NCBI GenBank assembly: GCA_004010935.1
Contig: CP026511.1
Coordinates: 4,340,001-4,404,000, forward strand
Length of the DNA stretch: 64,000 nucleotides
Reading direction: 5' to 3'
Source: Pseudomonadaceae bacterium SI-3
GTDB taxonomy: Bacteria > Pseudomonadota > Gammaproteobacteria > Pseudomonadales > Pseudomonadaceae
This document shows, in pieces, positions 3,319 through 46,900 of this stretch (positions are counted from its first letter, which is position 1; each line of letters begins with the position of its first letter). Position numbers and translations under genes: made by a program. The notes under the pieces are model-generated. The model saw only the letters and a program-made list of their open reading frames with translations, was not told the origin of the DNA and did no database searches.

Positions 3319-3420
3319 CTGAGCCTCGCTGTCCGATAGTGGAATTTCTTGAGCTTATCTGATTACCGCTCGATTGCAGCGCCTGCCGAGCGGACATCAT
3401 TCAACTGAGCCACCATGATA

Positions 3421-3436
3421 CTGTATATACAACCAG
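3421..3436 (+). promoter_or_regulatory. LexA (SOS) box upstream of the radical-SAM gene
   Basis: The 16-mer CTGTATATACAACCAG matches the gamma-proteobacterial LexA consensus CTG-N10-CAG with an AT-rich alternating core. The flanks TA (3419-3420) and CA (3437-3438) also resemble the extended consensus TACTG...CAGTA. It ends 16 bases before the chosen start codon at 3453, so bound LexA would be expected to block transcription or initiation. No other CTG-N10-CAG site of this quality was noticed in an intergenic region of the window. Confidence 0.75.
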
Positions 3437-3452
3437 CATCATGGTGATTGTT

Positions 3453-4664
3453 ATGCAGTTGATCGAGAAGCTCAGCGTCCTGGCCGACGCCGCAAAATAC
3501 GACGTGTCTTGTGCCAGCAGCGGTGCGCCCAAACGCAGCTCGAAGGGACGCAGTGGGCTCGGCGCCACGGATGGCATGGGTATTTGTCACAGCTTTACCC
3601 CGGATGGTCGCTGTGTGGCGCTGCTGAAAATCCTGTTGACCAACTTTTGCCTGTACGACTGCCAATATTGTGTCAACCGGCGTTCCAGCGATGTTCCGCG
3701 CGCACGCTTCACCCCAGAAGAAGTGGTGACGCTGACATTGGACTTCTACCGCCGCAACTGCATCAGCGGCCTGTTTCTCAGCTCAGGGATTATCCGCTCG
3801 GCTGACTACACCATGGAGCAGCTCAATCGCGTGGCCAAGCTGCTACGCGAAGAGCACGAGTTTCGCGGTTACATTCATCTGAAGACGATCCCAGATGCCG
3901 ACCCGCAACTCATTGCAGAGGCGGGGCGTTACGCCGACCGCCTCAGCGTCAACATTGAACTTCCGACCGAGGCCAGCCTGATTCGCCTGGCGCCTGAAAA
4001 ACAGGTAGTGACCATCAAGCAGGCGATGCACGCCATTCATGAGGGCGAGACCGAAGCGAAAGCGGAAAAGCGAGCGCCACGCTTCGCACCGGCAGGTCAG
4101 AGTACGCAGATGATCGTCGGCGCGGACGCCACCGATGACAGCACCATTCTGCATACCGCCCAATCACTGTATGGCGACTTCAGACTGCGTCGCGTCTATT
4201 ACTCGGCATTCAGCCCAATTCCGCACAGTCCGAAGACAGTACCCTTCGAAGCACCGCCGCTGCTGCGCGAGCATCGCCTATACCAGGCGGACTTCTTGAT
4301 GCGCAGCTATGGCTTCAAGGCCGGCGAATTGTTGACGGGCCCGGGCAACCTGCCGCTGGACATCGATCCGAAGCTGGCATGGGCACTGTCCAATCGCGAG
4401 CATTTCCCGGTTGATCTGAATAGCGCCGAACCTGCATTGATTGCGCGCATCCCCGGCATCGGCATTCTCAGTGCCAAACGGCTGGTCGCCCTGCGCCGGC
4501 AGAAGCGAATCCGCTTTGAAGATCTGACCCGCCTTCGCTGCTCGCTGGAAAAAGCCAAGCCCTTCGTCATCACCCAGGATTACCGCCCCAGCCTGGCCTA
4601 CCGAGAATCGTCCGCCTTGCGCCGGCAGCTCAGCGAAGGCCCGGTGCAGATGGGGCTCTGGTAA
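3453..4664 (+). CDS. Putative DNA modification/repair radical-SAM protein (TIGR03916-type)
   Basis: The 403-aa protein carries a radical-SAM cluster motif C-x3-C-x2-C (FCLYDCQYC, Cys66/70/73), so it should bind a [4Fe-4S] cluster and cleave S-adenosylmethionine. Three more cysteines lie just before it (Cys20, 45, 54). The C-terminal region (about 325-385) has a helix-hairpin-helix DNA-binding segment (DLNSAEPALIARIPGIGIL). The family resembles the putative DNA modification/repair radical-SAM proteins that occur as neighbours of a uracil-glycosylase-like protein, exactly as here; substrate and reaction are unknown. The ATG at 3453 is preferred over an in-frame ATG at 3441 because the latter has its ribosome binding region inside the LexA box. 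The stop overlaps the next start (TAATG). Confidence 0.85.
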   Translation: MQLIEKLSVLADAAKYDVSCASSGAPKRSSKGRSGLGATDGMGICHSFTPDGRCVALLKILLTNFCLYDCQYCVNRRSSDVPRARFTPEEVVTLTLDFYRRNCISGLFLSSGIIRSADYTMEQLNRVAKLLREEHEFRGYIHLKTIPDADPQLIAEAGRYADRLSVNIELPTEASLIRLAPEKQVVTIKQAMHAIHEGETEAKAEKRAPRFAPAGQSTQMIVGADATDDSTILHTAQSLYGDFRLRRVYYSAFSPIPHSPKTVPFEAPPLLREHRLYQADFLMRSYGFKAGELLTGPGNLPLDIDPKLAWALSNREHFPVDLNSAEPALIARIPGIGILSAKRLVALRRQKRIRFEDLTRLRCSLEKAKPFVITQDYRPSLAYRESSALRRQLSEGPVQMGLW

Positions 4665-5494
4665 TGCTTCAGGTTCGTTTCGACGGTCGTTTCGATGGTT
4701 GGCGCGAGGCGGCTCGCGATTTGCTCCACCGCGGAATCGCCCCACATCACGTGGAATGGCTAGCTGGCGACGAGGCGGGTGGCTTGTTCGGCGGCCACGT
4801 TGAACCGGAGTCGATCGAGCCCAGCTCGCCGGTACGCATCCCTCGGCAGTTGCTCGCCGAACTGGAAACTGCGGCGCGCTTTCGAACAGCTGACCGCTGG
4901 AGCCTGCTGTATCGCATCCTTTGGCGAGTCGCGAAGGGCGACCAGACGGCCAGGCTGGTTGGCGATGTCGACGGCAGCGAACTGCACGCGCGAATCAAGA
5001 CAATCCGCCGCGAAACGCACCATCTGCACGCCTTTCTCCGGTTCAGCCCGATTACGTGCCCGAGCGGCCCCGACTACGCGGCCTGGTTCGAGCCGGCGCA
5101 CGACATCCTGACCAGCGCCGCGCCGCACTTCGCCGAGCGGATGGGCCTGCATTCGTGGTTGATCGCGACACCGGATGATGCAGTGTTGTGGGACGGGGAC
5201 GTCATGCACTACGCCAATCCCTGCCCCGCCATCTGGCGCCAGTTGGCACAGACCGCCCAGGAGTCTGGCGCTGAGTTGTGGAAGACCTATTACGAAAGCA
5301 CCTTCAACCCGGCGCGGCTCAACCGCGACGTGTTGCAGAACAATCTGCCGGTGCGCTTCTGGAAAAACCTGCCGGAAGGGCCACTGATCCCGCAACTGAT
5401 GAGCCGTGCCCGGGCTGGAGCACAACGTGACGGCCAGGCAGAGCGTGTCGCCACCCGTCCGGGCAAGCGCATAGAACGGCCCGGACAGGCATGA
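4664..5494 (+). CDS. DUF4130 / TIGR03915-type uracil-DNA-glycosylase-superfamily-like protein
   Basis: The 276-aa protein is translationally coupled to the radical-SAM gene (TAATG). Recognisable family features are HAFLRFSP (about residues 122-129), WFEPAHDIL (about 142-150), a WLIATPDDAVLWDG block and the C-terminal WKTYYESTFNPARLN...FWKNLPE motif. The family is conserved beside the radical-SAM partner and is sometimes fused to a UdgX-like uracil-DNA-binding domain. That C-terminal domain is absent here; the protein ends in a short basic tail. The constant pairing and the LexA box suggest a DNA repair role, but no activity can be read from the sequence. The stop abuts the convergent pilU stop with no gap. 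Confidence 0.82.
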   Translation: MLQVRFDGRFDGWREAARDLLHRGIAPHHVEWLAGDEAGGLFGGHVEPESIEPSSPVRIPRQLLAELETAARFRTADRWSLLYRILWRVAKGDQTARLVGDVDGSELHARIKTIRRETHHLHAFLRFSPITCPSGPDYAAWFEPAHDILTSAAPHFAERMGLHSWLIATPDDAVLWDGDVMHYANPCPAIWRQLAQTAQESGAELWKTYYESTFNPARLNRDVLQNNLPVRFWKNLPEGPLIPQLMSRARAGAQRDGQAERVATRPGKRIERPGQA

Positions 5495-43973: not shown

Positions 43974-46900
43974 TCAACGCCCGAAACGGGCGCTATAAGT
44001 CACACCCAGCGTCCCACCTGGCTCCCCGTCACCATTGCGAGGTGCGGATTGGTACCCAAAGGTGAAGGCCAGTTCATCGTCGCCGAGCACTCGCATGCCG
44101 ACGCCCGTAGTAATCGCGTAGTTGGCTTGCTGTTCGGTCCATTGCCAGCCCGCCAACACATCGAGCAGCCAGCTAAATTGCGCTGTGCCGCGATTCAAGG
44201 CACCAGGAAATCCACGACGCCAGGTGCTGCCGACGTAAAGCTGACCGAAGCGCTCCTGTAGAAGATCGGCGGGCGTTGACATGAACTCACTGACGTCATC
44301 TTCTGTTTCGTCTGGAAGCTCGTTGTTCTTTAATCGATATTTCGCATAGCTGAGTCCGCTGCGTAGCGTCCAAGCAGGTCCTTCGAAGAACACCGCATGG
44401 CTGAGCTCCAGATTCGCCTGTTGCCCGCTGCCCACCGCTTCGCCGTCTAGCATGCTGTAGCGCTGATGCGTCAGCGACCAACTGAGCTGATCGCGCGCGC
44501 TGATTCCATGTGTACCGCTTATTCCGACCCCATCGCGCTGGCCCAGCGCTCGCAGCAGTCCGCTGTCTTCGGCCTGGCGCTGCCAGTCAGCACGAAACAC
44601 CAGTGCATCCTTGCTGGTCAGCTGAAGCCCCCTGGAAAGACCGAAACCAAAGCGGTCCCCCTCGTCGTGGCTGCTGCTATCGACCGCAACGCCCAGCGAC
44701 CCGTTATCCAATGTTCGGGTCAACTCCAGTTCGGCTGACTGCTCAATGCCAGGACGAGCCTGATACAGGCCGCTTCCCGAGTATTCCATTTGCGCAAGCG
44801 AGAGACTCGCATGCCAATCGTGATCCAGCTGCCGAGCAACCAGCACGGTTGGGCCCTGAAGCTTCAGTGAACCGAAATCCTGCTGCCGCATGCCCACCTG
44901 AATACCCTGCGGGTTGCGTTCCTGCAGCGCCAGTGCCTGCCGAAGCAACTGCTGACGAACAACAACAGGTTGCTCAGAGGAAAGTGCCGCCAGAGCTTCG
45001 GCCATCGCCTGGCTGTTAGCACCCAGACGCTGCAACGCCTCGACACGCTGCGCTGGGTCCAGTCCATCCTGCGCAAGCAGGCGCTCCAGGGCCTGACGGT
45101 TTTGCGTCTGCAACGCTTCTTGCAATTCCGCATAGCGGCTGATTTTCAGGCCGTTGCGCCGTGCCCATGCCAGCCACTGCCCCTTCAGCGAACTCTGATT
45201 GAGCACGTCAAGCTGCTCGCTGAACTGATCGAACCAGAGCTGCAACATCGGCCGAGAGCCATCGCGCCAGCGAAGCGCCAGCTCACCGGCTGCCGCGCCT
45301 GCGCCGCTGGCGGACATCAATCTCAGATAGGTCTGGTATTGCGCTACGTCTGCGCCACGCATCGGCATTTCGATCGTGCGTAGCATATGCCGACGCAGGC
45401 GTAGTGCACGATCCGAGTAACCGGCACTCTCCAGGGCATCGGCATAACCTGCCTGCACCAGGCTGTCGTCCGGGTTCAGTTCCAGATAAAGATCGAACCA
45501 GCGCAAGGCTTGATCATTACGATTGAGCAGCAGGTTGGCACTTGCGAAGGGCAACCATAGAGCACTCCGTTTAAGCGCGAGGTTCTGCCATTGCCGAAGC
45601 AGTGGAGCAAGCGGCTCACGCTGCCCTTGGTCAATGTAATGCCAGAGCAACTGCGGGCGGAACTCACCGGTTTCCGGGAAACGAGCCAGCGCTTCGAGGT
45701 ATAGACGCTCGGCCCCCTTGCTGTCCCCGACCTCTGCGGCTTGCATGGCACGTGCACTCCAGAGCGCGCTGATGCTGTCACTATCGGGCAGCAGCCGCCC
45801 CTCACGAACCAATGCATCAAGACGAACCATGTCGCCGAGTTGCATGGCCATCTGGATTGCACGGCTTAGACTCGCCGGCGTGCGGGTGCGCTTCCAGCTG
45901 ACGATCAACACGTCCAAAGCACGGTCGGGCGCACTGTGCTCGTAAAGGGAAATCAGCCGCTCCTCGGTCGTGCTGTCGGCCTTTACGCCCGACGCCTCGA
46001 GCCTGAGATAGCTCTCAAGGGCTTCCTCGTCCCGCTCCAGCTCCCATGCCAACTCGCCTCGCAGACGCCAGTAGCCTTGGTCAGTCACCGAGTCAGCATC
46101 GATGGCGTTGAGTACCTGCCATGCAGCCTGTGGATCGAACAATTGCCAGTTGGCTTCCGCCCAATCGACACGCTGGACGATGGACAGCCCAAAACGCCCC
46201 TCTATGTCGGCCCAAAGTTCTGCCTCAGCGGACAGCTGCTGGGTTTGCTCGAGGATCTGCTGCAGGCGCATCCATGCCAGTTGATGACTGGGGTGTACGC
46301 GCAGATAGCCACGCAACCATTGCTCGGCTTGCTCCGGGGTGCCTCGCTCGCTATGGCTGAATACGAGCGCGTCCAATTCCGCGTCCAGCAACTGCCGACG
46401 CGCTCCTGTATCGGCCAACAGAGCAATGGTGTTGTCAAAGTCATACAGTTGAGCAGCCAGGCGCCAGGCATGCTCCCGAACCGCCGGCGTATCCTCCAAC
46501 TGGATCAGGCGCAGCCAGAAATTCAGCGCTGCCGTGGTGTGCCCCGTCCACTCACCGAGCAGGGCCAGCTGCTTGAGCTGACCTGCAACCGGAGGCTCAA
46601 CGGCCGCCAGCCGCTGGCCGACAGCCCACGCCTGTTCGAGTTCGCCCGCAGCAAGATGCAGCCCAAACTCGGCGTTTAGCGCCCCCAGGTCATCCGGTTG
46701 CAGCGTACGCCAAGACGCTATCGTATCGGTCACCAGATCGTAACGACGGGTACCGATTCCCGCTTGCACAGCTGCACTGAACAGCGCCCCATCCTCTGCG
46801 TTCATCAGCGATAAATGGCGATGAACCAGCTCTGCTGCCTGCTCGCTCCGGTCCGCCGAGAGCAGCGCTGAAAACGCCTGATGCAGATAACGACGCCGGT

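Follow-up and report, generated by a model that had tools for sequence, protein, structure and literature searches.

Described relatives of the SI-3 pair

The described systems closest to the locus analysed here are the NCBIfam families TIGR03916 and TIGR03915, together with TIGR03914. The locus lies in a 64-kb stretch of contig CP026511.1 of Pseudomonadaceae bacterium SI-3 (the window) and consists of two overlapping genes preceded by a LexA (SOS) box: gene A, encoding a radical-SAM (S-adenosylmethionine) protein, and gene B, encoding a DUF4130 protein. Both genes are members of the respective families over the curated cut-offs, and their adjacency is implied by the names rSAM_link_UDG and SAM_7_link_chp, although the SI-3 version is without the TIGR03914 uracil-DNA glycosylase (UDG) domain meant by the first of these names. 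COG4277 is taken here, by its COG name, to be the TIGR03916 family.

According to the part of a 2021 paper that was consulted (PMC8565304), a COG1573-COG4277 operon is predicted to be SOS-regulated in Bacteroidetes. That part cites the same regulation for Verrucomicrobia and Caulobacter, describes the operon as one of uracil-DNA-glycosylase-based repair, lists SplB (COG1533) separately from COG4277, and leaves unsaid whether the operon belonged to the genes assayed by RT-qPCR. A figure legend from 2013 labels DUF4130 a predicted mutagenesis-related enzyme, and an earlier paper associates SplB-like radical-SAM proteins with DUF4130. The pair and its SOS regulation, presented as undescribed in a preliminary description made from the letters of the window, are therefore already described (NCBIfam TIGR03914, TIGR03915 and TIGR03916; PMC8565304 and PMC3765255, as far as the parts consulted go). 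For the reaction the word stands as far as could be seen, no assignment having turned up among the open-licence papers listed.

Few radical-SAM enzymes are known to act on DNA. The Pseudomonas aeruginosa orthologue PA0069 is reportedly LexA-controlled (Cirz 2006). No open-licence paper treating PA0069 together with LexA was found, the single paper with PA0069 using the gene as an insertion site, and the part of a review consulted (PMC13114513) gives about 15 LexA-regulated genes without naming PA0069. A radical-SAM protein, which may or may not be of the TIGR03916 family, is listed in the LexA regulon of Streptomyces (PMC9380542) and another such protein in two SOS networks (PMC7739468), and the main texts of PMC12700426, PMC13384398 and PMC9705874 mention neither uracil, radical SAM nor glycosylase.

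SOS boxes upstream of gene A

Matches to the LexA pattern with three mismatches numbered 283 in the window, compared with 281 expected from shuffled sequences, so that a single site alone proves little, and conservation was therefore used as the test of the box. All the genus genomes carrying gene A (n = 47/47) have a CTG-N10-CAG box 30 to 35 bases upstream of its Met codon, and the tile bearing the box was the only one reaching its matrix score in each of these loci. The chance level was a mean of 0.40 in 47 for dinucleotide shuffles and 1/282 for windows placed within genes. The scoring matrix was built from eight LexA boxes of the SI-3 genome selected by us, and the CTG-N10-CAG filter demanded at least six A/T among the ten middle bases, a threshold also of our choice.

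A family sample (248 genomes) yielded 128 genomes with gene A over the cut-off, all of which were examined (46 genus members plus 18 and 64 further loci), three weaker matches (G105, G182 and G083) being left out. The box preceded gene A in 126 of the 128 (46/46 in this genus, 16/18 and 64/64 elsewhere), and the two genomes that missed it (G067 and G094) had no LexA over the cut-off, matching only the C-terminal two thirds of that protein. In a phylum sample of 249 genomes, all 39 with gene A over the cut-off were examined and seven with weaker matches were left out; either CTG-N10-CAG or GAAC-N7-GAAC was found in 37/39 loci. These comprised 27 of the 29 loci L082-L110 (25 with GAAC-N7-GAAC in either orientation and two with CTG-N10-CAG) and all of the remaining ten. 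The carriers of GAAC-N7-GAAC are presumably alphaproteobacteria, given their kinship (same phylum, other class) and the motif itself, and one of the two genomes without a motif (G318) was also without LexA over the cut-off. A third set consisted of the best 80 of 586 confirmed loci from named genomes, mostly Bacteroidota, a bias due to the query alignment having started from the locus L064; the published motif CTAA-N5-TTAG occurred at most 120 bases upstream of gene A in 21 of these 80 loci (shuffle mean 0.25).

As judged from these motifs, the pair stands behind a different SOS motif in each of three lineages, though this does not extend to all Bacteroidota. Since the box is conserved before gene A and missing in genomes without LexA, SOS control of the pair is very probable. 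The preliminary description had pointed to the box upstream of the overlapping genes, proposed SOS control and suggested a survey of the box before orthologous pairs, its absence there in related genomes counting as a refutation; the genus and family counts show no such absence, bear out the box and strongly support the proposal. As a separate observation, a higher-scoring subfamily of radical-SAM genes in L064, L065 and L082 belongs to genomes without LexA over the cut-off, and a similar subfamily in L066-L068 has both box and LexA.

At the level of the whole genome (a single contig of 4.84 Mb encoding one LexA over the cut-off), the box is among 15 sites with at most three mismatches from CTGTATATATATACAG, whereas the reversed pattern gives four; the 15 include sites beside recA, recN, imuA and dinG, names that come from our own reading of the adjacent open reading frames (ORFs) and not from a tool. 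The site in the genome that fits the LexA pattern best (one mismatch; L002, G000:C1:126336-126351) is found where an ORF of ~400 aa begins, and an exact CTGTAT-N6-ACAG match at 46406-46421 of the window, inside a long ORF on the opposite strand, is probably due to chance. The box is centred in a longer palindrome, which might act as an extended operator or form an RNA hairpin. Many genus members retain this palindrome, some with matching changes on both arms, but it is mostly lacking from the other family loci with which it was compared.

Gene A, gene B and their locus

All the genomes of the phylum sample with TIGR03916 over the cut-off (n = 39/39) also have TIGR03915, which shares contig and strand with it and lies within ~3.1 kb. 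DUF4130 was found in the flank of gene A in 75 of the best 80 loci and was the sole family seen to recur across clades; no third conserved neighbour appeared beyond clade-specific genes among the 14 largest neighbour groups listed, and no fusion of gene A with gene B was found among the best 80 loci.

Gene B matches TIGR03915 (192.8 bits, cut-off 112.25) and PF13566/DUF4130 (119.6, cut-off 27). The preliminary description had read it as similar to the uracil-glycosylase superfamily, a resemblance that arose because a UDG domain is fused to DUF4130 in relatives. If that reading were right, the pair would carry out SOS-induced base excision repair with gene B as the glycosylase or a glycosylase-like protein and gene A assisting, which is how the consulted part of PMC8565304 reads the COG1573-COG4277 operon. 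In many relatives outside this class the domain fused to DUF4130 is indeed of the UdgX family, over the cut-off; the partners in the phylum sample have a contiguous UDG domain in 26 of 39 cases, none in 11 and an ambiguous arrangement in two, by our reading of the coordinates. A KRRIH-like string, presumably a mark of UdgX, occurs in 13/26 partner proteins with a tail of >100 residues. In gene B itself, however, searches of NCBIfam and Pfam (E up to 1) detected no UDG domain (TIGR03914 or PF03167), TIGR03915 and DUF4130 being the only matches, although the same libraries do detect UDG in the fused relatives, and DUF4130 aligned to 21 fused UDG domains with an hhalign probability of only 0.4-0.6%. 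The absence of a library match and of a profile alignment led us to reject uracil-glycosylase homology of DUF4130, with supporting evidence from Bacteroidota, where none of the 12 genomes with the pair has a TIGR03914 match, a search that covers UDG of the UdgX/family-4 type and is blind to Ung-type enzymes. The fused domain survives in 5/47 genus genomes, two of them below the cut-off, and glycosylase repair by this pair is, all told, very unlikely.

The partner mostly ends with DUF4130 in the best 80 loci (tails of 0-34 residues). Because the UDG domain is absent from many partners and from 12/12 Bacteroidota genomes, it is an accessory: an optional, dispensable fusion, absent from the SI-3 protein. 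Elsewhere in the SI-3 genome there is one weak match to the TIGR03914 family (32.6 bits, cut-off 189.95). The five genus genomes with a DUF4130-fused UDG are L018, L023, L043, L049 and L058, where the domain looks to be decaying: its motifs are altered, and in L018 and L049 it falls short of the cut-off.

Solved structures were not found by sequence for gene B (best E 0.26). An AlphaFold2 model of DUF4130 gave proteins of the DHH (RecJ/Cdc45) fold as top matches in the PDB, weakly, and a DHH family phosphohydrolase and a phosphohydrolase at ranks 1 and 2 in a viral library, with no match of E <0.001 in either search. UDG-fold chains are not among the fold matches listed, a listing that is no test of their presence. 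The DHH motif is absent from the columns conserved in at least 75% of 90 DUF4130 sequences, and comparison with RecJ and NrnA-type alignments gave a profile probability of 0.1%, the positive control (RecJ vs NrnA-type) giving 60%; DHH homology is thus unsupported by profile comparison, though DHH-type proteins came first in the fold searches of two libraries.

Gene A matches TIGR03916 (542.5 bits, cut-off 343.5) and PF04055, and has a helix-hairpin-helix (HhH) at its C-terminus (~residues 319-359), in agreement with the preliminary reading of a radical-SAM protein ending in such a motif. Its CX3CX2C motif (C66/C70/C73) is present in 175/175 aligned rows, and a further set of residues, C20, C45, H46 and C54, is likewise invariant, which suggests a putative second metal site. 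Solved structures found by sequence for gene A cover radical-SAM and HhH fragments. Spore photoproduct lyase is not among the 11 NCBIfam families listed for gene A (E up to 1), and its chains are not among the listed fold matches of the radical-SAM part, that listing again being no test.

The nearest fold matches listed for the radical-SAM part include enzymes of proteins, cofactors and RNA (LipA, HydE, BioB, RlmN and MiaB), and they lend some weight to the idea that the pair modifies a target other than DNA during the SOS response (such as a tRNA, a DNA polymerase or a clamp), favouring damage tolerance or mutagenesis, as does the mutagenesis-related prediction for DUF4130 in the 2013 legend. 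The HhH is a DNA-binding motif, with profile matches to a ComEA-related protein and RuvA, and DUF4130 alone recurs beside gene A across the clades of the best 80 loci, both of which argue for DNA instead; a non-DNA target is rather improbable. LipA and MiaB also inspire the idea of a protective DNA modification installed during damage, the second cluster aiding sulphur or methyl transfer as in those enzymes. HydE and biotin synthase match just as well within error, however, the cysteine region was modelled at low confidence, and induction by damage only suits repair better, making this account an unlikely one.

The features are collected in Table 1. Gene A has a second in-frame ATG at 3441, from which it had first been read, whereas its relatives share the Met codon at 3453, for which reason the latter is probably the start. 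The ATG of gene B overlaps the stop codon of gene A as TAATG (4662-4666), and the spacing of the two genes is identical in 40/47 genus genomes, SI-3 included, as extrapolated from alignments.

Table 1. Features of the gene pair and its upstream region, in positions of the window.
Feature	Position	Strand	Remarks
LexA (SOS) box CTG-N10-CAG	3421..3436	+	sequence CTGTATATACAACCAG; conserved among relatives
Longer, imperfect palindrome with the LexA box at its centre	3411..3446	not assigned	CCGTGATACTG...CAGTATCACGG type
Gene A, TIGR03916 (rSAM_link_UDG) radical-SAM protein, 403 aa	3453..4664	+	start codon as shared by relatives
Gene B, TIGR03915 / DUF4130 protein, 276 aa	4664..5494	+	no UDG domain found

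Gene A is absent from 9/56 genus genomes. Where present, the pair is flanked by pyrC, a TM2-domain gene and pilU in 46/47 loci (in L018, a short locus, pilU was not detected), indicating a settled chromosomal locus in the genus. The closest named relatives are those of Pseudomonas knackmussii for gene A (95%) and Stutzerimonas xanthomarina for gene B (82%), and the genus is presumably Stutzerimonas. Gene B evolves faster, with identities of 42-82% to 46 genus relatives as against 75-97% for gene A. Gene A is carried by 158 of 72,556 plasmid records, most of which (142) are predicted non-mobilizable. A phage origin was considered and rejected, ten phage records matching gene A, all at <60% identity, and no PADLOC anti-phage defence family matched either protein at E up to 1.

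Proposed function and comparison with known systems

Our favoured account, which we consider on balance probable, is that the two genes form an operon repressed by LexA and encode a two-protein radical system that acts on damaged DNA. In undamaged cells, LexA would occupy the box, directly upstream of gene A, and keep the operon shut; upon damage, RecA-driven cleavage of LexA would release it, and both proteins would be made in step through the overlap of the genes. The CX3CX2C cysteines of the gene A protein would hold a [4Fe-4S] cluster that, with SAM, generates a 5'-deoxyadenosyl radical, and the second metal site (C20/C45/(H46)/C54) might have a catalytic or a structural role, while the C-terminal HhH would grip the DNA backbone. 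The DUF4130 protein, as the regular partner and not a glycosylase, would most likely be a nucleic-acid-binding or substrate-presenting subunit, possibly in physical complex with gene A's product, the UdgX-type domain being an optional extra in many relatives outside this class. The pair would likely use the radical to reverse a DNA lesion directly or to process it; the preliminary description had proposed that it removes or rewrites a damaged or modified base.

Several observations weigh against this account. At the SI-3 site, the right half of the box is imperfect and its score (18.1) is below those of eight other boxes of the genome (22.5-26.6), which are the boxes that trained the matrix, and a simple scan revealed no sigma-70-like promoter. 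Among relatives, one phylum-sample genome (G338) has LexA without a recognised box, CTAA-N5-TTAG is limited to 21 of the best 80 loci, GGA-N5-TCC is found in none of them, and the Bacteroides-like part (L111-L139) has neither motif. The pairing is looser in reverse, with 39/41 TIGR03915 genomes having TIGR03916 and two having DUF4130 without gene A, and five of the best 80 loci show no DUF4130 (L132 ends there, and L125, L135, L166 and L168 had room for it). For the gene A protein, the HhH scores just below its Pfam cut-off (26.3 vs 27) and the N-terminal cysteine region has pLDDT (predicted local distance difference test) values of 45-57 in blocks at residues 11-50; moreover, the role of DNA as the substrate is something that we infer.

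A more specific version, put forward tentatively and as rather improbable, is a glycosylase-free radical repair in which a radical-SAM protein with two metal sites and a catalytically dead DHH/Cdc45-like DNA clamp reverse a lesion beyond the reach of every known SOS enzyme. Were the glycosylase-free reading true, the published uracil-glycosylase-based SOS operon would be misnamed, and UDG would be an accessory that many lineages have lost or never gained. With the UDG domain dispensable, the search for the reaction shifts from uracil excision to the radical-SAM and DUF4130 proteins. The presence of three SOS motifs across lineages, and the missing box where LexA is missing, mark this old and widespread pair as a strong candidate for a branch of SOS repair that has so far gone unrecognised.

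Compared with known systems, the SI-3 pair shares with the COG1573-COG4277 operon the arrangement of two genes under an SOS motif, whereas the UDG component described for that operon has no counterpart of the TIGR03914 family in the SI-3 pair or in the 12 Bacteroidota genomes, so that a description as UDG-based repair does not fit these members. UdgX is related in that many relatives have a domain of its family fused to DUF4130, a domain absent from SI-3 gene B. The DHH/DHHA1 superfamily (RecJ, Cdc45, PAP phosphatase) came first, weakly, when the DUF4130 model was searched by fold, although DUF4130 differs from it in having no DHH motif, no profile similarity and no match of E <0.001. Finally, SplB, the spore photoproduct lyase, is alike as a radical-SAM protein linked to the SOS response and DNA damage, while gene A is set apart from it by its NCBIfam family, its extra invariant cysteines, its HhH and its regular DUF4130 partner.
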